A DNA stretch of 64,000 bases from Cryptosporangium arvum DSM 44712. Lineage in GTDB: Bacteria > Actinomycetota > Actinomycetes > Mycobacteriales > Cryptosporangiaceae. Shown in pieces: positions 848 through 59,990 of the stretch (the first letter of the stretch is position 1; each line of letters opens with the position of its first letter). The notes under the pieces are model-generated. The model was given only the letters and a program-made list of their open reading frames with translations. It was not told where the DNA came from and searched no databases. The DNA is taken from contig NZ_KK073874.1 in the NCBI RefSeq assembly GCF_000585375.1, positions 6,106,894 through 6,170,893 of the forward strand. The letters are read 5' to 3'. The position numbers and the translations under genes were made by a program.

Positions 848-2009
848 GGGTGCGGAACCGCGGCAGGACGCGGACGCCACCGGCGGCGGCCAGCCACCCG
901 GCCACCCGCTGCGCCTCGGCCTCGATGAGCGCGGACGCCTCGCGCCCGACGTCCTCGAAGACCCGGACGGCCACCTCACCGTCGGGCCGGTGCGCCCATC
1001 CGCCGACGATGCGGCCGCTGAGCCAGATCGCCGGGCCCGCGTTGCCGGCGCGGTCGAAGAGCAGTGGAGCGTACTCGCCGAGGTACCAGTCGCGCCCGGC
1101 CCAGCCCATCGTCGTGGGGTCGAGCGCCGGCAGGAAAGCCACCCACGGGCCGGGGTCGGGCGTCTGCTCCCGGTCGCCGGGGAGCACCAGCCCGGTGGCG
1201 CCGCCGGCCAGCGCGACCGGCATCGCCCCGGCGTCGGAAACCGCGCGGGTGACCTGCGCCCCCGTCCAGCCGGTCCACCACCGCAGGTCCGACGCGGGCG
1301 CCGGCCCGTACGCGGCGAGCCAGGCCGCGGCGAGCCGGGCGCGGGCCTCGGCGGGCGGCGGCCGGTCGAGCGGTACCGGCAACCACTGCTCGGCCAGCGC
1401 CCACTGGTAGCGCTGGGAGAACAGGGTGCCGGTGGGGCGGCCGCGGACGATCCGCCCGTCGGCGCCGAGAATCGTCAGCACGCGGCTGGTGATCGCGGGG
1501 CGGGCCTCGTAGGGCTTGCCCGGTGCCAGGTGCAGGGTCGTTCGTAGCCGCGGCTCGGCGGCGGCCAGCTCCACGGCCGAGGCCGTGCCGCCCCGGGCGG
1601 CGAGCGCGGCGAGCGTGCCGGCCTCGACGTCGGCGAGCCAGGCCTCGGTATCCGGCACCCCGGCCGTGACCAGGTCCTTGAGCAGGGCGCGGCGCTGGGT
1701 GGCGACGACGCGCTCCATCGTCGACGCCTCGATGACCGGGAGCAGCGGGCTGGGTACGACGAACACCGTGCGCCGCATGCCGAGCATGCGCACGAGCGTG
1801 CGCCGTGTGTACAGCGCGTCCTGGAGGTCGGCCGGTGTACCGCGGGCGGCGCGGGCGCGCACGGCGAGGAACACGCTCGCGGCGTCGGTGGCGTGCAGTG
1901 CGACCACCCGGGCCGCCGCCTCGACCGGGTCGGCGGCGCGCGCCGCCGGCGCCAGCGCATGACGCACGCCGAGCCGCCGCCGGCGCTCCTCGTCGCTGAA
2001 TTCAGGCAT
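822..2009 (-). CDS. Winged-helix DNA-binding protein, AlkZ/YcaQ-like (HTH_42 family)
   Basis: The 395-residue protein starts at an ATG at 2009. The repeated winged-helix architecture and the block RVVALHATDAASVF near residue 40 match the HTH_42 superfamily, which includes the AlkZ and AlkX (YcaQ) DNA glycosylases. Those unhook alkylated bases or interstrand crosslinks with a Q-x-Q or Q-x-D motif. Here the matching position reads HATD, so the canonical first glutamine is absent and glycosylase activity cannot be assumed. It stands alone on the minus strand, 86 bases after the MocR gene's stop, and overlaps the convergent kinase gene. Family assignment is good; catalytic role is open. Confidence 0.75.
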   Translation of the reverse strand: MPEFSDEERRRRLGVRHALAPAARAADPVEAAARVVALHATDAASVFLAVRARAARGTPADLQDALYTRRTLVRMLGMRRTVFVVPSPLLPVIEASTMERVVATQRRALLKDLVTAGVPDTEAWLADVEAGTLAALAARGGTASAVELAAAEPRLRTTLHLAPGKPYEARPAITSRVLTILGADGRIVRGRPTGTLFSQRYQWALAEQWLPVPLDRPPPAEARARLAAAWLAAYGPAPASDLRWWTGWTGAQVTRAVSDAGAMPVALAGGATGLVLPGDREQTPDPGPWVAFLPALDPTTMGWAGRDWYLGEYAPLLFDRAGNAGPAIWLSGRIVGGWAHRPDGEVAVRVFEDVGREASALIEAEAQRVAGWLAAAGGVRVLPRFRTPTERELSG

Positions 2010-2095
2010 GGCCCGGATGGTGCCGGACCCCTCCGACAGTTCTGGTCAGCCGGCGGGCGACCGCGTCGCGAGGAGACCCCGTGTCGGTCGGGGGG

Positions 2096-3484
2096 TCACT
2101 CGTGGCCCCGGTCCACCGCGTCGCGCAACGCGTCGAGGCCGGACGGTATTTTCTCGGCCGGGACGAGGCCGAACCCGAAGACCAGCCCGCCGTGCTCGGG
2201 CAGTGTCTCGAGGTGGACGCCACGGCGTGCGGCCCCGCGGGCCAGTCGCGCCACGTCGACGCCGGGCGCGGCGCGGACGCTCAGGTGCAGCCCGGCGGCC
2301 GACGGGATGCGGGTGAGCACGTCGGCGAAGTCGCGGTCGAGCCGGACGGTGAGCGCCTGGTGGCGGGCGGCGTAGACCCGGGTCGCCCGGCGGACGTGCC
2401 GGGCCAGCCGACCCTCGTCGAGGAAACGGGCCAGCGCGTGCTGGGTGACCGGGTCGCCGTGCCGGTCGGCGAGGCGCCGGGCCGCCACCAGCGCCGGGCG
2501 CAGCGACCGCGGCGCGACCAGGAAGCCGAGTCGCAAGGCCGGGGACAGCGTCTTCGCGAACGATCCGACGTAGACGACACGGCCGTCGGGGTCGAGGCTC
2601 TGGAGCGGTTCGAGCGGACGGTCGGCGTACCGGAACTCGCTGTCGTAGTCGTCCTCGACGACGATCGCGTCGTGGTGGTCGGCCCAGCGCAGGAGGGCGG
2701 CGCGGCGGGTCAGCGAGAGCGGGACGCCGAGCGGGTACTGGTGGGCCGGGGTCACGTACACCAGGCGGACGTCGCGCGGCAGCGCGTCCACGACGAGGCC
2801 CTCGGCGTCGACGGGGACGTCGACGATCCGCGCGCCCCGGGCCGCGTAGAGGGCCCGGGCGGCGGGGTACCCGGGTGCTTCGATCGCGACGCGGTCGCCC
2901 GGAGCGAGCAGGACCCGTCCGATCAGGTCGAAGGCCTGCTGGGCGCCGGCGGTGACGAGGACGTCGTCGGTGTGCGCGCGTACCGCCCTGGCCACGCCGA
3001 CGTGGTGCGCGATCGCGGCGCGCAGCGCGGGGACTCCGGCCGGGTCGCCGTACGCGTCGTCGCGGAAGACCGCGGCGCGGAGGGCGGCGCTCATCAGACG
3101 GCGCCAGGTGGCCAGCGGGAAGAGGTCCGGGTCCGGCATCCCGACCCGGAAATCCCAGCCCGCACGCGGAGCGCCGCCGGGCCCACCGCTGTCCGCCGGC
3201 ACGGCGACCGGGAGGGGCGGGCCGGGGCGGGCGGACGCGGGGGCGGGCAGCGGGGCGTCGCTGACGTAGGTTCCGGCGCCGACCCGGCCGACCAGGAAGC
3301 CCTCGGCGGTGAGCCGGTCGTAGGCCACGCCGACCGTGGTGCGTGAGATCCCGAGCTGCGCGGCCAGCTCGCGGGTGGCCGGAACCTGCTCACCGGGGCG
3401 CAGGCGGCCCTCGAGCACCGCGGCGCGCACCTGCCGGTAGATCTGGGCGGCTAGACCACTTCGGCCGCTGACGTGGATCTCCAT
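2096..3484 (-). CDS. MocR/PdxR-type regulator (GntR wHTH fused to a fold-type I aminotransferase domain)
   Basis: Starting at the ATG at 3484, the protein has 462 residues. The N-terminal GntR winged helix contains LRPGEQVPATRELAAQLGIS and TTVGVAYDRL. A full PLP-dependent aminotransferase-like domain follows, with VTAGAQQAFDLIGRVLL, the DDYDSEFRY loop and the PLP-lysine block SFAKTLSPALRLGF. MocR regulators sense PLP, amino acids or related amines and bind direct repeats. The gene lies immediately downstream of, and overlaps by 34 bases, an MFS transporter on the same strand, so it is probably co-transcribed with and controls that exporter. A direct repeat upstream of the transporter is the likely operator. 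Effector unknown. Confidence 0.88.
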   Translation of the reverse strand: MEIHVSGRSGLAAQIYRQVRAAVLEGRLRPGEQVPATRELAAQLGISRTTVGVAYDRLTAEGFLVGRVGAGTYVSDAPLPAPASARPGPPLPVAVPADSGGPGGAPRAGWDFRVGMPDPDLFPLATWRRLMSAALRAAVFRDDAYGDPAGVPALRAAIAHHVGVARAVRAHTDDVLVTAGAQQAFDLIGRVLLAPGDRVAIEAPGYPAARALYAARGARIVDVPVDAEGLVVDALPRDVRLVYVTPAHQYPLGVPLSLTRRAALLRWADHHDAIVVEDDYDSEFRYADRPLEPLQSLDPDGRVVYVGSFAKTLSPALRLGFLVAPRSLRPALVAARRLADRHGDPVTQHALARFLDEGRLARHVRRATRVYAARHQALTVRLDRDFADVLTRIPSAAGLHLSVRAAPGVDVARLARGAARRGVHLETLPEHGGLVFGFGLVPAEKIPSGLDALRDAVDRGHE

Positions 3485-50628: not shown

Positions 50629-51693
50629 ATGGACGAGACGACGACCCGACTCCTTTTCCACCAGGTGTCCGCCTCGGCCCCGCCGGCCGCGGACGTGGAC
50701 CTGCGCCGGGTGGTCCGGCGCGCCGAGCGGCGACGCCGTCGACGGCAACGCGGGCTGGCCGCGATGGCGGCGGCGGTCGTGCTGGTGGTCACCGGCGGGG
50801 TCGCGCTGCTGGCCACCGGGCTCGGTGCCGATCGGACGCCACCGGCCCGCCCCGCCGGGCCGGACGTCACGTACGGGCCGCCGCTGACCGTCGCACCGAC
50901 CGCCTTCGACCCGCTCCGGCACGCGATCCAGGTGTCCGGGCTGCCGTCCGGCCTGCCGTTCGTCATCGGGCGCGTCACCCGCGACGAGGCGTTCTACCTC
51001 GCGTCGCGGACGTACTCCGGGGACGACTACCGCGTGCGGCTGGCGGCCCGCGGCCACCCGCTCGAGGAGGAGTCCGGCCTGATCGGACGCGTCTCCGTCC
51101 CCGGGCCGGAGATCCACGGCCGGCCGAGCCGGTGGTACACGTCGACGAAGGACGCCCGCGGGCAGGCGACGCACGAACTGCGCTGGGAGTGGGCGCCGGG
51201 CGCGCGGGCCTCCGTCCGGCTCGGCGATCAGCCGGACGCGCTGGGCGTCGCGGCCAGGATCGCGGAGTCGGCGCGGATGACCGCCACGCCGCTGCGCCTG
51301 CCCTACACGGCCGACGTCCCGGCGCCGTTCCGTCCGTCGGCGGCCGGCTCGAGCTGGCGCGGCCGTGACCTCAGCACGTTCAGCCTGGAGTTCGACGACC
51401 CGGCCACCGGCTCGGTCCTCGGCATCGGGGTGGCGTCGAACTCCTTGACGCTCGACTTCGAGCCGAACACCGAGATCCACGACCAGCCCGGCCAGACCAA
51501 GCGCGACGGCAACTTCGCCCGGGTCCGGGTGCGCCAGCCCACGGTGCAGTTCGGGCTCGACTGCGACGACAAGCCCTACGGGGCGCAGAGCGTCGGCGTC
51601 GCGATGGCCCGGTGCGTCGCGGTCGCCGAGTCGATCGACCTGGTCGCGAACCCGCTCCGGCCGGACACCTGGCCGCGGGCTACGGTCCGCTGA
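50629..51693 (+). CDS. Membrane-anchored protein, putative partner of the ECF sigma factor
   Basis: ATG at 50629, 354 residues. A basic cytoplasmic part (VDLRRVVRRAERRRRRRQRG) precedes one membrane span (LAAMAAAVVLVVTGGVALLAT, about residues 43-63). The remaining ~290 residues are outside and rich in beta segments. No anti-sigma zinc or ASD motif is visible in the short inside part. Its gene order (two bases after the sigma gene) suggests an anti-sigma or sensor partner. I know no named family from the extracellular part. Confidence 0.7.
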   Translation: MDETTTRLLFHQVSASAPPAADVDLRRVVRRAERRRRRRQRGLAAMAAAVVLVVTGGVALLATGLGADRTPPARPAGPDVTYGPPLTVAPTAFDPLRHAIQVSGLPSGLPFVIGRVTRDEAFYLASRTYSGDDYRVRLAARGHPLEEESGLIGRVSVPGPEIHGRPSRWYTSTKDARGQATHELRWEWAPGARASVRLGDQPDALGVAARIAESARMTATPLRLPYTADVPAPFRPSAAGSSWRGRDLSTFSLEFDDPATGSVLGIGVASNSLTLDFEPNTEIHDQPGQTKRDGNFARVRVRQPTVQFGLDCDDKPYGAQSVGVAMARCVAVAESIDLVANPLRPDTWPRATVR

Positions 51694-52762
51694 CGGCCTC
51701 GGGGAACGCGAGCTCGACCCGCAGGCCGTCGCGACCGGTGGACGACGCGGTGATCACGCCGTCGTGGGCGCGGGTGATCGAGCGGGCGATCGCGAGCCCC
51801 AGCCCGACGCCGCCGCTGTGGTCGATGCGGGTTCCGGCCAGCCGACGGAACGGCTCGAACAGCGCGGACACCGCGTCGGGAGGGACGTCGTCGCCGGTGT
51901 TGGTGATCACCAGCGCGGGGTCGTCACCGACCTCGACCTCGACGGTGCCCTGGTCCCGGTTGTACTTGACCGCGTTCTGCACCAGGTTGGTGATCAGCCG
52001 TTCGAGCAGCACCTGCTCCCCCATCACCACCCGCGGACGCAGGGTGCCGGTGATCGTGATTCCGGCCTCGGCGGCGCGGGCCCGGTGGGCGTCGAGCACC
52101 TCGGCGGTGATCGTGTCCAGCCGCAGCGGGGTGCGCGAGACCAGGCCGCGGTCGCTCTCGCTGAGCACGAGCAGGCCCTCGATCAGACGCTCGTTGCGTT
52201 CGTTCGTGGTCAGCAGCTGCCGGGTGAGCAACGCGAGCTGGTCCCCGGTGGGCGCGCCGGACAGGCCGACCTCGATCAGCGTGCGCTGGACCGCGAGCGG
52301 CGTGCGCAGCTCGTGGGACGCGTCGGCGGCGAACCGCCGCTGGGCGTCGTAGCCCACCGCGATCCGGTCGGTCATGTCGTCGATCGCGCGGCTGAGGACC
52401 GCCAGCTCGTCGCGGCCCGGGCCGGGCCGGAGGCGGTACCCGAGGTTCTGCGGCCCGACGTTCGCGATCATCGGGACGAGGTCCCGGATCGGGCGCAGGC
52501 ACCACCGCACCGCGAAGACGCACGCCACCAGCAGCACCGCCAGGAGCAGCGTCAGCGCGATCACGGTCGCGATGGTGGGCCGGTAGAACACCTGCCGGCA
52601 GACGTAGGAGCCGGACGGCGCGCCGTACTGGTCGACCGCGCACCAGGACGGGCCGAACTCGGCCCACAGCCAGAGCAGCCGCCCGGCGAGCCACGGGCCG
52701 AGCTGCGCGATCACGAACACGGCCCCGCACAGCAGGAGCACACGTCGCGCGGGTGACCTCAC
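51680..52762 (-). CDS. Sensor histidine kinase (two-component)
   Basis: GTG at 52762 (GTGA overlap with the regulator gene), 360 residues. Two membrane spans (residues about 7-32 and 62-86) flank a small outer domain with Cys pairs (CAVDQYG, YVCRQ). A HAMP-like segment follows. The H-box is FAADASHELRTPLAVQ, the N-box LITNLVQNAVKYN, and the G-boxes ITNTGDDV and GGVGLGLAIARSI. It is an OmpR-partner kinase. The stop overlaps the convergent membrane-protein gene by 14 bases. Confidence 0.93.
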   Translation of the reverse strand: MRSPARRVLLLCGAVFVIAQLGPWLAGRLLWLWAEFGPSWCAVDQYGAPSGSYVCRQVFYRPTIATVIALTLLLAVLLVACVFAVRWCLRPIRDLVPMIANVGPQNLGYRLRPGPGRDELAVLSRAIDDMTDRIAVGYDAQRRFAADASHELRTPLAVQRTLIEVGLSGAPTGDQLALLTRQLLTTNERNERLIEGLLVLSESDRGLVSRTPLRLDTITAEVLDAHRARAAEAGITITGTLRPRVVMGEQVLLERLITNLVQNAVKYNRDQGTVEVEVGDDPALVITNTGDDVPPDAVSALFEPFRRLAGTRIDHSGGVGLGLAIARSITRAHDGVITASSTGRDGLRVELAFPEAVSGP

Positions 52763-53418
52763 GAGCCGAGCCGGTAGCCCACGCGCGGCACGGTCGCGAT
52801 CGGCGAGGGCTCACCGAGCTTGCGGCGCAGCGTCATCACCGTCGTGCGTACCGTGTTGGTGAACGGGTCCGTGTGCTCGTCCCACGCCTGTTCCAGCAGG
52901 TCCTCGGTGCTCACCACGCGTCCGCCCGCGCGCATCAGGACGTGCAGGACGGCGTACTCCTTGGGCGAGAGCGAGAGCGGCAGGCCGTCGCGGGAGGCCA
53001 CGTGCCTGGCGACGTCGAGCACGATGCCGTCCTGTTCCAGCACCGGCGGCAGGGCGGGGGCCGAGCGGCGCGAGAGCGCCTGCAGCCGGGCGACCAGCTC
53101 GGCGAACGCGAACGGTTTGGTGAGGTAGTCGTCGGCGCCGAGGCCCAGGCCCTCCACCCGCTGCCGGATGCCCGCGGCGGCCGTGAGCAGCAGCACCCGG
53201 GTGCCGGTGCCGGACGCGACGATCCAGCGGCAGACCTCGTCGCCGGTGCTGCCGGGCAGGTCCCGGTCGAGCACCGCGACGTCGTAGCGGTTGACCGCGA
53301 GCCGTTCCAGCGCGGTGTCCCCGTCGTAGGTCACGTCGACGGCCATCGACAGCCGGCGCAGGCCTTCGGCCACCGTGTCGGCCAGCACCCGCTCGTCCTC
53401 GGCCACGAGTATCCGCAC
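52759..53418 (-). CDS. OmpR/PhoB-family response regulator
   Basis: 219 residues from 53418. Receiver: MRILVAEDERVLADTV (acidic pocket), YDVAVLDRDLPGSTGDE (phospho-Asp), VLLLTAAAGIRQRVEGLGLGADDYLTKPFAF (T and K). The C-terminal winged helix has PLSLSPKEYAVLHVLMRAGG and TVRTTVMTLRRKLGE. It heads the two-gene system with the histidine kinase and lies 87 bases from the divergent secreted-protease gene, so it may control that gene. Confidence 0.94.
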   Translation of the reverse strand: MRILVAEDERVLADTVAEGLRRLSMAVDVTYDGDTALERLAVNRYDVAVLDRDLPGSTGDEVCRWIVASGTGTRVLLLTAAAGIRQRVEGLGLGADDYLTKPFAFAELVARLQALSRRSAPALPPVLEQDGIVLDVARHVASRDGLPLSLSPKEYAVLHVLMRAGGRVVSTEDLLEQAWDEHTDPFTNTVRTTVMTLRRKLGEPSPIATVPRVGYRLGS

Positions 53419-53505: not shown

Positions 53506-54351
53506 ATGTTCCTTCGGTTCCTCGCCGTCACCGTGCTGACGGCGGCCGCGGCCGTCGCTCCGGTGGGTGTCCGGCCGGCCGCCGCGATCGCCCACGGTGA
53601 GGACGGCGCGTATCGGTTCGCGGTGCTGCTGTCGATGTCCGGCCTGCCGGCCGCCGGGTCCGGCACCCGGGACAGCTCCTGCTCCGGCGCGCTGATCGCG
53701 CCGCGGTGGGTGATCACGGCCGGCCACTGCTTCCGCGACGCCGACGGGCGACGGGTGAGCCGCACCGTCGCGCGGCGCACCACCGCCACCGTCGGCCGGG
53801 CCGACCTGGACGGGGCCGGCGGCTGGGAGGGCGAGGTCGTCGACGTGCGCCAGGCCGGCGACGCCGACGTGGCGCTGGCCCGGCTCGACGCCGACGTTCC
53901 CGGGATCGAGCCGCTGGTGGTCGGCACCGCACCGCCATCGGTCGGCGAGGCCGTGCGCCTGGCCGGATACGGGCTGACGATCCGGGACGGCGCCTACACC
54001 CCCGCGACCCGGCAGCAGACCGGGCAGTTCGTCGTCGACCGGGTCTCCGACACCGTGCTGGAGATCTCCGGCCGGGTTCCCGGCCCGGACACCAGCGCGT
54101 GCGAGCACGACTCCGGCGGGCCGTACTTCCGGGAACGGCCGGACGGGGTCGCGGTGCTGGTCGGGATCGTGAGCACCGGGCCGTCCTGCCCGCACCCGGG
54201 CGCGGACATCGGCGCGCGCACCGACAACCTGAGCGGCTGGATCGAGGACACCGTCCGGGGCGGCGTACCGCTCGGGCGGTTCGCCCTGGGCGGCCTGGTG
54301 GTGCTCGTGGTGCTCCTCGGCGCCTGGCGGGCCCGGGCCGGGCGCCGGTGA
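53506..54351 (+). CDS. Secreted trypsin-like serine protease with C-terminal membrane anchor
   Basis: ATG at 53506, 281 residues. Signal peptide (FLRFLAVTVLTAAAAVAPVG). The S1 catalytic triad is in place: His74 in WVITAGHCF, Asp121 in DADVALARL and Ser203 in CEHDSGGPYF. The C-terminus has one membrane span (FALGGLVVLVVLLGAW) and a basic tail. It acts outside the membrane. The GTGA overlap couples it to the PBP-like gene; it is divergent from the two-component regulator. Confidence 0.92.
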   Translation: MFLRFLAVTVLTAAAAVAPVGVRPAAAIAHGEDGAYRFAVLLSMSGLPAAGSGTRDSSCSGALIAPRWVITAGHCFRDADGRRVSRTVARRTTATVGRADLDGAGGWEGEVVDVRQAGDADVALARLDADVPGIEPLVVGTAPPSVGEAVRLAGYGLTIRDGAYTPATRQQTGQFVVDRVSDTVLEISGRVPGPDTSACEHDSGGPYFRERPDGVAVLVGIVSTGPSCPHPGADIGARTDNLSGWIEDTVRGGVPLGRFALGGLVVLVVLLGAWRARAGRR

Positions 54352-55838
54352 TCCGGTGGGTGGTGCGGGTCGGCGCCGGTGTCCTCATCGGAGTCCTGGC
54401 GCTGGTGGTGGCCGGTTTCCACGCGGTGGACCTGCCGCCGTTCCCGGACCAGCCCCAGACCAGCACCGCGGTCTCCGCCGACGGGAGGCACCCGCTGGCG
54501 CTGTTCGCGACCGAGAACCGGCAGCGGGTGCCGCTGGGCCGGGTACCGCGCCACGTGCAGGACGCGGTGGTCACCGCCGAGGACGCGGGCTTCTGGGACG
54601 ACAGCGACGGGGTGTCGCTCTCCGGGATCGGCCGCGCGGTTCTCGGGCTCGTGCGCCGGAACGCGGGCAGCGGCGGCGGATCGACGATCACTCAGCAGTA
54701 CGTCCGCAACGCGCTCGACCTCACCCGCGAGCGCAGCTACTCGCGTAAGGCCAAGGAGCTCGTGCTCGCCGGCAAGCTCGCCCGCACCGCGTCGAAGGAG
54801 GAGATCCTCGAGGGCTACCTCAACACGATCTACTTCGGTCGCGGTGCGTTCGGGATCCAGGCGGCCGCGCAGGCCTACTTCGGGCGCGACGTCGACGAAC
54901 TCACCGCCGCGCAGGGCGCCGTGCTCGCGGCCGTGATCAAGGACCCGACGAACTTCGATCCCCGGATCAGACCGGGGAGCGCGCGGGGCCGCTGGCAGTA
55001 CCTGATCGACCGGATGGTCGCGAGCGGGTACCTGTCCCCGGGGAGCCGATCGTTCCCGGGCACCGTCGCGCGGAGGGCGTCCGCCTCGGCCCGGGAGGCG
55101 CTGCGCTCCGGCTGGCGCGGTGTGCTGGGGGGCCGGATCGAGCGGGAACTCGACGGCGTCCTGACCGAGCAGCAGCTCTACACCGGCGGGTACACGATCA
55201 CGACGACGCTCGACTGGGCCGACCAGCAGCGGGCCGCGCGGGCGGTGGCGACCCACCTGCGAGGTCAGGACCCGCGCCTGACCGCCGCCGTGGTCGCGAT
55301 CGAGCCCTCGACCGGCCGGGTCACCGCGTACTACGGCGGCGAGGCCGGGTACGGGTACCTCGACCAGGCCGACACGGCCCGGCTGGCCGCCGAGACGTAC
55401 TGGCCCTACGTCCTCGCGGCGAGGCTCGGCGGTTCCCCGGTGCCCGACACCGACCTCCCGACGGTGTCCCCCTTCGACCAGGCGTCGGGCTACGCCACCT
55501 TCGCCGACGACGGCCTCGCCCGGGAGCCGTACTTCGTCCAGCGGGTCACCGCGCCCGACGGCACCGTGGTCCGGGAACGCCGGCCCTCACCCGGGTACCG
55601 GGTGCTGCCGAGCGAGGCCACCGGCGTGCTCGCCGCGCACGCAGCGGCCCGGCCCGGGACCTCGGACGGCAACACCAACGCCTGGATGTGCGGCTTCACC
55701 GCCGACCGCGCGGTCGCGGTGTGGGTGGGCAGCAGCGGCGACGACTTCCCGATGCGTGACGCCCGCTCCGGCGAGCGCGTGCGGGGCGAGGGCATCCCGG
55801 CCGGGATCTGGTCGGACTACCTCGCCGAGGCCGGGTGA
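54348..55838 (+). CDS. Class A penicillin-binding protein-like glycosyltransferase with a degenerate transpeptidase domain
   Basis: GTG at 54348 (GTGA overlap with the protease), 496 residues. One membrane span (residues 8-24). The GT51 domain is intact: VVTAEDAGFWDD with Glu78, GGGSTITQQYVRN, KAKELVLAGKLARTASKEEI and YLNTIYFGRGAFGI. The transpeptidase part, residues about 310-496, is short. Where PGSxFKPF is normal it reads AAETYWPY (Glu349 and Trp352 replace the catalytic Ser and Lys), SxN is missing with about 80 residues, and KTGT is RPGT. This should polymerise glycan but not crosslink or bind beta-lactam. Confidence 0.87.
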   Translation: MIRWVVRVGAGVLIGVLALVVAGFHAVDLPPFPDQPQTSTAVSADGRHPLALFATENRQRVPLGRVPRHVQDAVVTAEDAGFWDDSDGVSLSGIGRAVLGLVRRNAGSGGGSTITQQYVRNALDLTRERSYSRKAKELVLAGKLARTASKEEILEGYLNTIYFGRGAFGIQAAAQAYFGRDVDELTAAQGAVLAAVIKDPTNFDPRIRPGSARGRWQYLIDRMVASGYLSPGSRSFPGTVARRASASAREALRSGWRGVLGGRIERELDGVLTEQQLYTGGYTITTTLDWADQQRAARAVATHLRGQDPRLTAAVVAIEPSTGRVTAYYGGEAGYGYLDQADTARLAAETYWPYVLAARLGGSPVPDTDLPTVSPFDQASGYATFADDGLAREPYFVQRVTAPDGTVVRERRPSPGYRVLPSEATGVLAAHAAARPGTSDGNTNAWMCGFTADRAVAVWVGSSGDDFPMRDARSGERVRGEGIPAGIWSDYLAEAG

Positions 55839-56839
55839 CCCACCTCCCCGGACCCCCGCTCGACGACCGTGCTCGGCAGCACGATCGTCCGGGGTGGAGC
55901 GTCCGGGTCGGCGATGCGCGCGACCGCGAGCAGCGCCGCCTGCCGCCCGACCTCCTGCGGGTCCCTGGTGATCGCCGTGATGCCCAGGCCGGCCGAGAGC
56001 TCGGTCTCGTCCAGCGTGATGAACGCGTTCGAACGCCGGTTCGCGATGCGGTCGAGCAGGGCGCCGGTGCTGATGCCCAGGTTCAGCGCCAGGATCGCGG
56101 TCGGCGGATCCGCGCGGTCGAGCAGCAGGCACGCGGCCGCCCTGGCCTCGTCGGTCGTCGTGAGACCGGTGACGACGAGCGACGGATCCTCCTCGACGCG
56201 GTGCGCGGCGAGCCCGGCCCGGAAGCCGCGGAGCCGCTGGTCCGCGCGGAACGAACCGGCCCGGCCGGCCAGCGCCGCGATCCGCCGGTGCCCGAGCGCC
56301 ACCAGCCGGGCGGTCGCATCCTGGACGCCGCGGTCGTCGTCGGTCATCACGACGTCGACGTCGAGGCCGTTGGCCGGGCGACCGGCCAGCACGACCGGCG
56401 TGGCGAACGTCCGGTCGGGGCGCAGGAAGTCACGCTCGTCCCCGTCGGGCATCATGATCAGCGCCCGGACCCGGCGGTCCACCATCGTGCGGGCCAGCTC
56501 CGGCTCCCGGCGGACGTCGTCGTCGGTGGAGCCGATCACCAGGTGCAGGCCGGTGCGGTTGAGCTCGCGCTCGGCGCCGGCCGCGACCCCGGCCTGGAAC
56601 ATGTTGGTGAAGCCCGCGGTGACCAGGCCGATCGCCGCGGTGCGCTGGTCGCGGCGCAGGTCCTGGGCGGTGGGGTTGGGCGAGTACCCGAGCCGCTGCG
56701 CCACCTCGAGCACCCGCTCCCTGGTCGCGGGTGTGACCAGTGCGGAGCCCTGGATGGTTCTGGTGACGGTGGCGGTGCTGACCCCGGCGGCGCGCGCCAC
56801 GTCGGTGACGGTCACCCGGGAACGGTCCGACGTTCGCAC
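55817..56839 (-). CDS. LacI-family transcriptional regulator
   Basis: GTG at 56839 (AGGGG five bases upstream), 340 residues; a GTG at 56845 is an alternative. The HTH is VTVTDVARAAGVSTATVTRTIQGSALVTPATRERVLEVAQRLGYSPN, typical of LacI with the hinge helix. The ligand domain contains LVIGSTDDDVRREPELARTM and CLLLDRADPPTAILALN. It is divergent from the ABC operon across a 112-base gap with two matching operators, so it is that operon's repressor. Overlaps the convergent PBP-like gene by 22 bases. Confidence 0.94.
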   Translation of the reverse strand: MRTSDRSRVTVTDVARAAGVSTATVTRTIQGSALVTPATRERVLEVAQRLGYSPNPTAQDLRRDQRTAAIGLVTAGFTNMFQAGVAAGAERELNRTGLHLVIGSTDDDVRREPELARTMVDRRVRALIMMPDGDERDFLRPDRTFATPVVLAGRPANGLDVDVVMTDDDRGVQDATARLVALGHRRIAALAGRAGSFRADQRLRGFRAGLAAHRVEEDPSLVVTGLTTTDEARAAACLLLDRADPPTAILALNLGISTGALLDRIANRRSNAFITLDETELSAGLGITAITRDPQEVGRQAALLAVARIADPDAPPRTIVLPSTVVERGSGEVGHPASAR

Positions 56840-56875
56840 GATCACCCCTACGGCCCGGAAGCGCTGACGGCTCGA

Positions 56876-56892
56876 TTGTAAACGTTGACATT
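56876..56892. promoter_or_regulatory. LacI-type operator 1 (TTGTAAACGTTGACATT)
   Basis: A 17-base, CG-centred near-palindrome 37 bases before the LacI gene start. The reverse complement of site 56921-56937 matches it at 14 of 17 positions, giving the consensus TGTAA[A/T]CGTT[G/A]ACATT. CG-centred sites of this kind are typical for LacI regulators, and the pair would permit looping. Confidence 0.75.
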
Positions 56893-56920
56893 CGCGTCGT
56901 GCTGACCAACACTTGCCGCC

Positions 56921-56937
56921 AATGTTAACGATTACAT
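56921..56937. promoter_or_regulatory. LacI-type operator 2 (AATGTTAACGATTACAT)
   Basis: The reverse-orientation copy of operator 1, with centres 46 bases apart, 15 bases before the ATG of the binding-protein gene. It overlaps the probable promoter or leader of the ABC operon. Confidence 0.75.
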
Positions 56938-56951
56938 CGGGAGGACCGGCT

Positions 56952-58262
56952 ATGCGCGCTCGATGGAGAGCCGCCGCGACCGCGGTGGTGGTGTTACTCG
57001 CGACGGGCACCGCGTGTCAGGGCGACGGCGGGAGCGACCGGACCGTGCTGACCTACTGGGCGTCGCAGCAGTCGCCGAGCGTCCAGCGCGACAAGGAGAT
57101 CCTGGAACCGGAGCTGCGTGAGTTCACCGAGCGGACCGGCGTCGAGGTCGACCTGGAGGTCGTGCCGTTCACCGAGCTGCTCACCAAGATCCTGACCGCG
57201 ACGACGAGCGGCCAGGGCCCCGACGTCGTCAACGTCGGCAACACCTGGTCGACGTCGCTGCAGGCCACCGGCGCGTTCGTCGAGTGGGACGAGGACCTGC
57301 TGGACGGCGTGGGTGGCGCCGACCGGTTCGAGCCCGCGGCGCTGGAGACGACCGGAGCCGCCGGAGCGCCGCCGGCCGCGGTTCCGCTCTACACCAAGGT
57401 CTACCAGCTCTACTACAACAAGAAACTCTTCCGCGAGGCCGGCATCACCGCACCGCCGGCCACCTGGGACGAGTTCGTCACCACGGCCAGGAAGCTCACC
57501 AGGGACACGACCGGTGACGGCACGCCTGACCAGTGGGGCCTGGCGTTGCGCGGGCAGGCCACGACGATCGCGCTGCACTACGCCTACATCCTCGGCACCG
57601 CCCGGGGCGCGGAGTACTTCGACGGCACCAAGCCGACCTTCGACTCACCGGCGGCGGTCGCCGGCATCCAGCAGTACCTCTCCTGGATGGGTGCGGACGG
57701 CATCGTCAACCCGTCCGACGCGGAGAACGCCGACTGGGCCGACGTCTACTCGGCATTCGCCGCGAACAAGGCCGGCATGATGCTCGTCCAGACGCTCGGA
57801 CGGACGCTCGCGGACTACCGGCTCACCGACGAGGACTACGGTGTCGCACCGATGCCGAGGAGCACCGGGCCCGGCGCCCGGGACGTGGCCTCGTTCGTCG
57901 GCGGCACCAACGTCGCGATCCTGAACTCGACCGACAACCGGGACGGGGCCGTCAGCCTGGTCGAGTTCCTCACCAGCGCACCGGAGCAGGTGACGCTGAA
58001 CACGGCCTACGGCACCGTTCCGCCGGTCAAGGACGTCACCGGCGACGCCTTCCGGACGCCGGAGCAGCTGATCGCCCGCGAGACGCTGGCCCGGCGGGCC
58101 GTCCCGATGCCGCGCGTGCCGCAGGAGACGCAGTTCGAGACGCTCGTCGGCAAAGACGTGGTCAGCTGGCTCGCCGACACGGCTACCGGCAGGCAACCGG
58201 ACGACGCCGCGATCAGGGCGGCGCTGAAGTCGGCCGCCGGCACGGTGGGCGCGGGCGGATGA
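56952..58262 (+). CDS. Extracellular sugar-binding lipoprotein of a CUT1-type ABC importer
   Basis: ATG at 56952, 436 residues. The lipoprotein signal (AAATAVVVLLATGTAC) ends with a lipobox Cys. The fold is the MalE/SBP_bac_1 type: LTYWASQQSP, FTELLTKILTATTSGQGPDVVNVGN, YNKKLFREAGITAPPATWDE and FVGGTNVAILNSTDNRDGAV. It binds an oligosaccharide or related solute. ATGA overlap with the first permease. Expression should be repressed by the divergent LacI protein. Confidence 0.93.
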   Translation: MRARWRAAATAVVVLLATGTACQGDGGSDRTVLTYWASQQSPSVQRDKEILEPELREFTERTGVEVDLEVVPFTELLTKILTATTSGQGPDVVNVGNTWSTSLQATGAFVEWDEDLLDGVGGADRFEPAALETTGAAGAPPAAVPLYTKVYQLYYNKKLFREAGITAPPATWDEFVTTARKLTRDTTGDGTPDQWGLALRGQATTIALHYAYILGTARGAEYFDGTKPTFDSPAAVAGIQQYLSWMGADGIVNPSDAENADWADVYSAFAANKAGMMLVQTLGRTLADYRLTDEDYGVAPMPRSTGPGARDVASFVGGTNVAILNSTDNRDGAVSLVEFLTSAPEQVTLNTAYGTVPPVKDVTGDAFRTPEQLIARETLARRAVPMPRVPQETQFETLVGKDVVSWLADTATGRQPDDAAIRAALKSAAGTVGAGG

Positions 58263-59158
58263 GCAGGCGGTGGACGCCCTACTGGTTCCTGCTCCCCGCC
58301 CTGCTGCTGGAGCTGTTCATCCACTTCGGGCCGATGCTCGTCGGCGCGCTGATGAGCCTGCTCCGGCTCACCCAGTTCCAGCTGGGCCGCTGGTGGGAAG
58401 CTCCGTGGGCGGGGACCGGCAACTATCGCGTCGTGCTGGACGCCGATCGGCCGGTGGGCGCGTCGCTGCTGCAGTCGTTCCTGGTGACGGTCGGCTTCAG
58501 CGTGCTCGTCGTCGGGGTGTCGTGGGGGCTCGGCTTCGCCGGCGCGCTCGCGCTGCAGCGGTCCGGCCGGGGGCGCGGGGTGCTCCGCGCGCTGTTCCTG
58601 GTGCCGTACGCGCTGCCGGTCTTCGCGGCGGTGATCACCTGGCGCTTCCTGCTGCAGCGGGACACCGGGATGCTCAACCACCTGCTGGTCGACCAGCTCG
58701 GCCTGCTCGACGGAAACGCCTTCTACCTCATCGGCTCGAACTCGTTCTGGTCGCTGTGCGCGGTGGAGATCTGGCGGGAGTGGCCGTTCGCGTTCCTGAT
58801 GCTCATGGCCGGGCTGCAGTCGGTACCCGACGAGGTGTACGAGGCGTCGGTGATGGACGGCGCGAGCCCGTGGCGGCAGGCGCGCAGCATCACGCTGCCG
58901 ATGCTGTCCCCGGTCAACCAGGTGCTGGTCCTGGTGATGGTCCTGCGCACGTTCCGCAATTTCGAGACGCCGTACGTGCTGTTCGGCGGCGCGGTGCCCG
59001 ACCAGGCCCGGCTGATCAGCGTCGAGATCCACCAGAACTCGTTCCTGACGTTCAACTTCGGCCTGGGATCGGCGATGAGCGTCCTGCTCCTGCTCTTCCT
59101 CGTGCTGGTGACGGCCGCCTACCTTCTCCTGACCCGACGGAGGGTCCATGAAGCATGA
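58259..59158 (+). CDS. ABC transporter permease (MalF/UgpA-like)
   Basis: ATG at 58259 (ATGA overlap), 299 residues, six membrane spans. The cytoplasmic coupling loop (EAA motif) is QSVPDEVYEASVMDGASPWRQARSITLPML. A typical start LLPALLLELFIHFGPM and late FGLGSAMSVLLLLF match CUT1 permeases. Works with the next gene product. Confidence 0.92.
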   Translation: MSRRWTPYWFLLPALLLELFIHFGPMLVGALMSLLRLTQFQLGRWWEAPWAGTGNYRVVLDADRPVGASLLQSFLVTVGFSVLVVGVSWGLGFAGALALQRSGRGRGVLRALFLVPYALPVFAAVITWRFLLQRDTGMLNHLLVDQLGLLDGNAFYLIGSNSFWSLCAVEIWREWPFAFLMLMAGLQSVPDEVYEASVMDGASPWRQARSITLPMLSPVNQVLVLVMVLRTFRNFETPYVLFGGAVPDQARLISVEIHQNSFLTFNFGLGSAMSVLLLLFLVLVTAAYLLLTRRRVHEA

Positions 59159-59990
59159 AACCCGCGGCTACCGCCTCTTCCGGCGGAGCACGCTGACGGT
59201 GCTGACCGTCTTCGTCTGCGCCCCGCTCGTCGTCATGGTGACGACCGCGCTCAAGCCGCTCGACGCGGTCCAGGGCGGCTTCCACTGGATCCCCACCGAG
59301 CCCACGGTCCGGCCGTTCGTCGACATGTGGTCGACGGTGCCGCTCGCCCGGTACTTCGCAAACTCGGTGATCGTCGCCGGGATCGCCACCGCGCTGTCGG
59401 TGACGGTGGCCGTGCTGGCCGCGTACGCGGTGAGCCGCTGGCGGTTCCGGGGCCGCGAACCGTTCCGCCTCGCGATCCTGTCCACACAGATGTTCCCCGG
59501 CATCCTGTTCCTGCTGCCGCTCTTCCTCCTCTTCGTCATGATCGACCGGCTGACCGGGGTGACGCTCGTCGGCACCCGGACCGGGCTGGTGATCACCTAC
59601 CTCACGTTCGCGCTGCCGTACTCGATCTGGATGCTCGTCGGCTACTTCGAGTCGATTCCGCGCGGTCTCGACGACGCGGCCAAGGTCGACGGCTGCGGCC
59701 CGTTGCGGTTGCTGGTCAGCGTCCTGCTCCCGGCGGCCCGGCCGGTGATCGTCGCGGTGACGATCTTCTCGTTCATGCTGGCGTGGGGCGAGGTGCTCTT
59801 CGCCTCGGTGCTGACCGCGGAGAACACCCGCACCCTCTCGGTCGGGCTGCAGGCCTACACCAGCGAGGCCAACGTCTACTGGAACCAGGTGATGGCCGCC
59901 TCGCTCGTCGTCTCGGCGCCGCTGGTGGTGGCGTTCCTGCTCCTCCAGCGGCACATCACCGCCGGTCTGACGGCCGGAGCCGTCAAATGA
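59148..59990 (+). CDS. ABC transporter permease (MalG/UgpE-like)
   Basis: ATG at 59148 overlapping the preceding gene by 11 bases, 280 residues. The EAA loop is ESIPRGLDDAAKVDGCGPLRLLVSVLLPAARP; membrane segments include LTVLTVFVCAPLVVMVTTAL and YLTFALPYSIWMLVGYF. ATGA overlap with the lyase gene. The operon carries no ATPase, so it presumably uses a shared MsiK-type ATPase elsewhere in the genome. Confidence 0.92.
   Translation: MKHETRGYRLFRRSTLTVLTVFVCAPLVVMVTTALKPLDAVQGGFHWIPTEPTVRPFVDMWSTVPLARYFANSVIVAGIATALSVTVAVLAAYAVSRWRFRGREPFRLAILSTQMFPGILFLLPLFLLFVMIDRLTGVTLVGTRTGLVITYLTFALPYSIWMLVGYFESIPRGLDDAAKVDGCGPLRLLVSVLLPAARPVIVAVTIFSFMLAWGEVLFASVLTAENTRTLSVGLQAYTSEANVYWNQVMAASLVVSAPLVVAFLLLQRHITAGLTAGAVK

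Follow-up and report, generated by a model that had tools for sequence, protein, structure and literature searches.

Peptidoglycan glycosyltransferase activity without transpeptidase (TP) activity is known from the monofunctional glycosyltransferases MtgA and SgtB/MGT. In the class A PBP PonA1 (PBP1, Rv0050) of mycobacteria a GT51 domain, a linker and a TP domain follow one another in a single chain. In Mycobacterium smegmatis, according to the accessible text of PMC4483258, growth is supported by TP− PonA1 and by a TP-less truncation (residues 1–360), but not by a TG− allele. The same text describes a changed cell shape in cells carrying the TP-less protein, so the TP domain of PonA1 does matter in this organism. 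For mycobacterial PBP1 (ponA1), the C-terminal 259 amino acids are described as sufficient for RipA binding, and protein without the last 150 amino acids as not binding, in the accessible part of PMC2912383. Among the best-ranked matches in the open-licence literature, no report was found of natural class A PBPs that are dead in the TP half or in both halves (doubly dead).

The gene analysed here, P0001, was found in a window of 64,000 nucleotides (the whole stretch of DNA that was analysed). Its product has the GT51–linker–TP order of PonA1 and PonA1 heads the VIA-align matches of its modelled C-terminal remnant; it differs from PonA1 in the absence of the three TP motifs, of the SxN region, of the cytoplasmic N-terminal part and of the C-terminal tail. 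It would act like the monofunctional glycosyltransferases, as a GT51 enzyme without TP activity, but it carries a linker and a TP remnant, groups with PonA1-type sequences and scores 112.8 with the NCBIfam monofunctional model TIGR02070, under the curated cut-off of 182.65. With a probability of roughly two in three, we read P0001 as the product of a duplication of a PonA1-type class A PBP gene, turned into a dedicated peptidoglycan glycan polymerase whose TP remnant is kept for folding or docking. The engineered PonA1(1–360) and TP− alleles of M. smegmatis, as far as the accessible text of PMC4483258 describes them, likewise combine glycosyltransfer with loss of transpeptidation; P0001 differs in that it is natural, stands as an extra gene beside an intact copy and has kept a TP remnant that appears to be constrained.

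The PBP gene and its two halves

The features of the locus, together with the doubly dead genes of the genus, are listed in Table 1.

Table 1. Positions of the features (in the window, unless a locus is named).
Feature	Position	Strand	Remarks
Class A PBP paralogue P0001, PonA1 type, GT51 intact, TP dead by sequence	54348..55838	+	496 aa, GTG start
N-terminal membrane helix, residues 2–26	54351..54425	+	Model helix, pLDDT 53–56 (low); topology by eye
GT51 domain, residues 53–223, with E78, GGSTITQQ (110–117), E137	54504..55016	+	Pfam, residue check
TP remnant, residues 311–495, SxN-bearing region deleted	55278..55832	+	AF2 pLDDT 66–96, lowest at 361–370
Place of SxxK, E-T-Y-W, residues 349–352 (E349, W352)	55392..55403	+	MAFFT and profile alignments
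Junction, residues 361–372; 12 residues span 97 profile positions including SxN	55428..55463	+	Profile alignment
Place of KTGT, R-P-G-T, residues 435–438	55650..55661	+	MAFFT and profile alignments
Trypsin-like (S1) protease P0002, signal peptide, H/D/S triad (HDSGGP)	53506..54351	+	Pfam PF00089, 75.4 bits; triad and signal peptide by eye
C-terminal hydrophobic anchor of P0002	54280..54330	+	By eye
OmpR-type response regulator, divergent from the protease–PBP pair	52759..53418	−	
Sensor histidine kinase, short outer loop with two Cys	51680..52762	−	Loop and Cys by eye
Doubly dead PonA1-type PBPs	L067:6650-8608 (G000); L068:8355-10556 (G003); L069:7712-9739 (G001); L070:574-2544 (G002)		

An intact glycosyltransferase half with Glu78 and GGSTITQQ had been described in an earlier note made from the sequence alone, and both were recovered. 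Pfam Transgly matches this half with 184.7 bits (cut-off 27), and both catalytic glutamates are present together with GxSTxTQQ, as in a GT51 peptidoglycan glycosyltransferase. The protein lacks the cytoplasmic part ahead of the membrane helix; in the intact copy the N-terminal region is long. Pfam Transpeptidase matches only as a fragment (17.8 bits, under the cut-off of 22.1), and the NCBIfam PBP_1a model gives 289.4, under its cut-off of 508.75, the match lying mainly in the first half of the model.

The TP motifs were placed in two separate MAFFT alignments and with a profile HMM built from 61 intact relatives; a residue check at the motifs was an extension of the first MAFFT alignment and is not independent of it. 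The three alignments agree in placing E349 and W352 at the SxxK pair and RPGT at KTGT, as the earlier note had read, and in finding no SxN. Where a bifunctional class A PBP has SxxK, SxN and KTG, P0001 therefore has EW, a gap and RPG, and there is no serine at the nucleophile site. The loss of SxN had been put at some 80 residues, which is too small: profile positions 120–216 (97 positions, with the SxN consensus at 162–164) are replaced by 12 residues, and in a second gap positions 266–291 (26 positions) are replaced by nine. Judged from these alignments, the TP half is without nucleophile, general base, SxN and KTG, and no residue is left for transpeptidation at the three motif sites. Aligning the protein with class A PBPs thus upheld the losses, and the profile alignment ruled out that SxxK, SxN or KTG lie elsewhere in P0001.

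A frameshift or sequence error in the TP half is unlikely, because third-position GC is 0.93–1.0 in 12 of 12 blocks of 40 codons and because a single unbroken frame aligns on both sides of the gap. The description of the TP half as conserved and decayed, not truncated by a frameshift, holds in its second part. The word conserved has to be qualified: no orthologue of P0001 was found in the four other genomes of the family (three of the genus and G004 of a sister genus; drafts, 93–99% complete), and what is kept of the TP half is a remnant common to P0001 and a paralogue in the same genome. A class-wide search of 394 genomes, a weak one with three candidates scored per genome, gave no match at 1e-75 outside the genome of P0001.

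The AF2 model of P0001 (pLDDT 83.2, pTM 0.71) was obtained from a 22-row alignment. Its residues 254–496 superposed best in VIA-align on M. tuberculosis PonA1 (5cxw), with Z 28.7 and an rmsd of 1.6 over 239 aligned residues at 36% identity; Acinetobacter baumannii PBP1a entries (Z 28.1, rmsd above 7) and 4oon (27.9) tie with it to within 1 in Z. With the whole model, the first Foldseek match was S. aureus PBP2 (E 1.3e-24); longer two-domain PBPs led this ranking, and PonA1, for which the structure covers the TP part only, came 31st. The remnant is thus predicted to be folded, and the TP core fold to outlast the deletion, with the reservation that a folded appearance is common in AlphaFold models when homologues are used to build them.

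Descent, related copies and constraint

The genome carrying P0001 (9.2 Mb, one contig) has eight GT51 genes; none of the other genomes of the order that were examined (111 in all) exceeds seven. One of them is the intact relative L019 (C1:9163968), whose best PDB match by sequence is M. tuberculosis PonA1 (5crf, E 1.8e-69). One flank holds rplI, rpsF and a gene for a GT87 protein, the other genes for DUF5318, PadR and inositol-phosphate synthase (Ino1), a gene order which we take to be that of the ponA1 (Rv0050) neighbourhood of M. tuberculosis. In the GT tree, P0001 and a paralogue, L014, fall into a set of ten rows (support 100/98), the other eight being four intact and four doubly dead sequences of the genus. 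Given the 5crf match and the ponA1-like gene order around L019, the rows grouped in this way are assigned to the PonA1 type, and P0001 is taken to be a PonA1-type paralogue.

L014 is located 64 kb downstream of P0001, is 572 amino acids long and is 61% identical to it. It has kept the GT half, has A-K at S-K and QPG at KTG, and lacks SxN, the SxN columns holding one residue in the extended alignment and none in the separate one. The two proteins share x-P-G at KTG and 28 residues that are absent from all five intact relatives compared, and 48 TP columns occupied in each of these five are empty in both; 44 further columns missing from both are the C-terminal tail. Beyond the columns missing in L014, P0001 lacks another 57 of the TP half. 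Because of these shared residues and shared missing columns, the common ancestor of the two was probably TP-dead already.

In the sister genus (genome G004), two further TP-dead genes, L013 (S-R, gap, VSG) and L020 (G-L, gap, VTG), occur alongside an intact one, L015. Opposite L020 lies a gene for a D-Ala-D-Ala carboxypeptidase (S13). In this genus a TP-dead GT51 gene and such an S13 gene are placed end to end and convergent (L066:3204-5060 and 1550-3169). In the GT tree L013 pairs with the intact L015 (100/99). A single ancestral loss of TP for all TP-dead copies was rejected by AU tests, in which P0001, L014 and L013 as one clade gave p 0.00016, the same with L020 p 1e-51, and L013 with L020 p 0.0007; the groups for these tests were chosen after the tree had been seen. 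Since the joint clades are rejected, TP activity is judged from the tree to have disappeared on three or more occasions within the five genomes. A clade of P0001 and L014 with the four doubly dead rows was rejected only marginally (p 0.044), and the doubly dead line would represent either a fourth loss or one early lesion shared by all six genes.

Counted over the five genomes of the family, four of them drafts, eight of 13 PonA1-type genes are TP-dead, four in the TP half only and four in both halves; repeated loci were counted once and an inverted second copy on a contig of G002 was omitted. For the rest of the order, 58 matches outside the family were obtained at E <= 1e-60 and 57 were examined, a 398-aa frame at a contig end (G081) being omitted. 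All TP motifs were present in 56 of the 57; the remaining frame, L128 (381 aa, from a genome 74% complete), breaks off and was excluded, so that none of the 56 complete PonA1-type genes examined elsewhere in the order is TP-dead. Fisher's test for 8/13 against 0/56 gives 1.5e-7, a value that ignores shared descent. The short frames of two other GT51 genes (L153, L154) were excluded, and the 22 PonA2-type rows, all intact, were kept out of the PonA1-type count. A scan of contigs yielded 36 loci, namely the gene of the sister genus and 35 others, most of which have all motifs; L078, L081 and L085 are incomplete or ended by a contig edge. At L078, where a contig of a Pseudonocardiales MAG ends, a PBP seems to have lost its TP motifs and may be another case.

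Constraint on the remnant was examined by comparing P0001 with L014. Identity is 51% in the TP half (153 residues) and 70% in the GT half. By codon position (first, second, third), the proportions of sites that differ are 0.34, 0.29 and 0.41 in the remnant (0.67, 0.73 and 0.50 after shuffling) and 0.19, 0.15 and 0.34 in the GT half (0.69, 0.75 and 0.53 after shuffling). With positions 1 and 2 far under the shuffled level and position 3 near it, the remnant is judged to be under purifying selection, and its faster divergence indicates that this selection is weaker than on the GT half. The NG86 w values (P0001–L014, TP 0.62 and GT 0.37; P0001–L019, TP 1.21) are unreliable, with third positions at about 95% GC and near saturation, and the comparison by codon position was preferred for that reason.

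It might be held that P0001 is simply a gene being lost, a superfluous PonA1 copy without a special role in which the TP half decayed first and the GT half will follow. That the three other genomes of the genus examined have no orthologue, that the TP half diverges faster than the GT half and that a related lineage of the genus has lost both halves would all fit such a course. A decaying gene is nevertheless hard to reconcile with intact GT catalytic residues, with an intact frame and codon use, with the codon-position pattern of the P0001 and L014 remnants and with the occurrence of TP-dead copies in two genera, and we consider this account unlikely. Of the readings considered, a dedicated glycan polymerase has the best support, because the GT residues are intact, the TP sites are empty, the remnant is predicted to be folded and constrained, and PonA1 provides a laboratory precedent. 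The earlier note had offered a glycan polymerase or a pseudo-enzyme sensor; for the sensor no evidence was found. As a polymerase, P0001 would polymerize lipid II in a moenomycin-sensitive and penicillin-insensitive manner, and crosslinking would be left to other PBPs or to L,D-transpeptidases. The remnant, which retains residues aligned with the C-terminal portion of the TP domain, would keep the protein folded and could dock partners such as peptidoglycan hydrolases.

Copies dead in both halves

Each of the four genomes of the genus examined has one PonA1-type gene that is dead in both halves. The frames of these genes are open and both Pfam domains score above cut-off in all four. The motif-3 glutamate is lost in all and the motif-1 glutamate in three of the four, and GGSTITQQ is altered to SIAEQ, SIAEK, SLTEQ or TLAEQ. 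The S-K pair is replaced by P-E, A-A, A-E or A-Q; all four retain KTG or KSG, and one retains SxN. In the GT tree the four form one side of a branch (91/99). Between two of them, L017 and L018, the TP part is 75% and the GT part 55% identical; of the five other pairs, TP identity is ahead in three (those with L024) and about equal to that of GT in two (L016–L017 and L016–L018). Their neighbourhoods are unlike one another, apart from a PadR gene that G000 and G003 have in common along with the sequence next to it; the G002 contig is too short for this comparison. This contig (C152, 5142 bases), which carries L070, holds two inverted copies of one gene, probably an assembly artefact, and the gene was counted once.

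Persistence of such genes in all four genomes makes non-catalytic roles plausible in this genus, and the accessible part of PMC2912383 describes the TP domain of PonA1 as a docking surface for RipA. P0001 itself could accordingly be pictured as a pseudo-enzyme regulator or decoy which binds lipid II, nascent glycan or partners and regulates the intact PonA1, with polymerization secondary or absent. In contrast to the doubly dead copies, however, the GT residues checked in P0001 show no loss, and such a role is quite improbable for it; a polymerase with a docking remnant is preferred.

A wider scenario is put forward tentatively, as one that may well prove wrong: PonA1 duplicates of this family would repeatedly have taken a path to glycan-only synthases with a docking TP domain, one line having gone on to a doubly dead scaffold or regulator. 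If it were true, selection on class A PBPs could act on a second function, a structural one, in the absence of any catalysis, as in pseudokinases. The relatives dead in both halves would count as bifunctional-type pseudo-PBPs. Evolution seems to have repeated, more than once in one small family, the split of PonA1 that was made in the laboratory. The genes would offer natural material for studying the non-catalytic role of the TP domain, the need for coupling of polymerization to crosslinking and the behaviour of a penicillin-blind polymerase.

Protease and two-component neighbours

The gene upstream of P0001 encodes the membrane-anchored trypsin-like protease that the earlier note had described (Pfam Trypsin, 75.4 bits, cut-off 20.6), and its stop codon does overlap the GTG start of P0001 as GTGA. 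Six homologues of P0002 were found in the family at 46–50% identity (E <= 1e-10); the C-terminal anchor is absent from all six, as judged by eye, and P0002 is the only one of the seven to have it. One of the six, the paralogue L114 (G000:C1:5843429-5844190), has a TGA inside the matched stretch. The adjacent two-component system is also present, as a divergent kinase and OmpR-type regulator. The regulator has five paralogues in the genome at 53–60% identity. The best matches in the other four genomes of the family are 42% identical for the kinase and 50% for the protease, so neither has a close orthologue there.

The paralogue L014 is likewise head-to-head with a kinase–regulator pair, one of another subfamily. 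Its regulator is only the 19th of 27 matches to that of the window, in a genome with 60 HisKA matches, and duplication of two-component systems together with the PBPs as a block is not supported. No two-component genes were found beside L013 or L020. Homologues with comparable losses, which the earlier note had suggested seeking beside S1 proteases, do exist, but a protease neighbour is absent, as judged by eye, from the other three TP-dead GT51 loci, L014, L013 and L020 (the contig of L013 starts 660 bases upstream).

These observations bear on the idea of a protease-gated synthase, in which the anchored S1 protease cleaves the remnant or activates P0001 and the two, induced by stress through the two-component system, serve as a repair pair. 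The GTGA overlap, the divergent regulator and the membrane anchor peculiar to P0002 agree with it. The three loci without a protease and the lack, in the four remaining genomes of the family, of close orthologues of either kinase or protease do not, and we regard it as very improbable. Of the earlier proposal that P0001 works with or is processed by the protease under stress control, the overlap and the divergent regulator stand, and comparative support is missing; it is gene order at the P0001 locus that suggests the links to protease and stress. The divergent two-component systems beside both P0001 and L014 point to regulated expression, not to a protease link. Two-component control of the glycan polymerase is plausible, and, less firmly, P0001 and the tail-anchored protease might be produced jointly as need arises, with the divergent system in control.

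The gene htrA3 may lie next to cutRS, but no confirmation of this was found in the literature and it carries no weight here. In the secretion-stress system of Streptomyces, CutS is controlled by two cysteines in its sensor domain, as stated in the accessible text of PMC12802291. The two cysteines in the short outer loop of the window's kinase are reminiscent of CutS and provide a lead.

Directly 3′ of the PBP gene, genes for a LacI-type regulator and a sugar ABC transporter occupy 55817–59990 and are probably unrelated to it; an ABC transporter is also found near L014.
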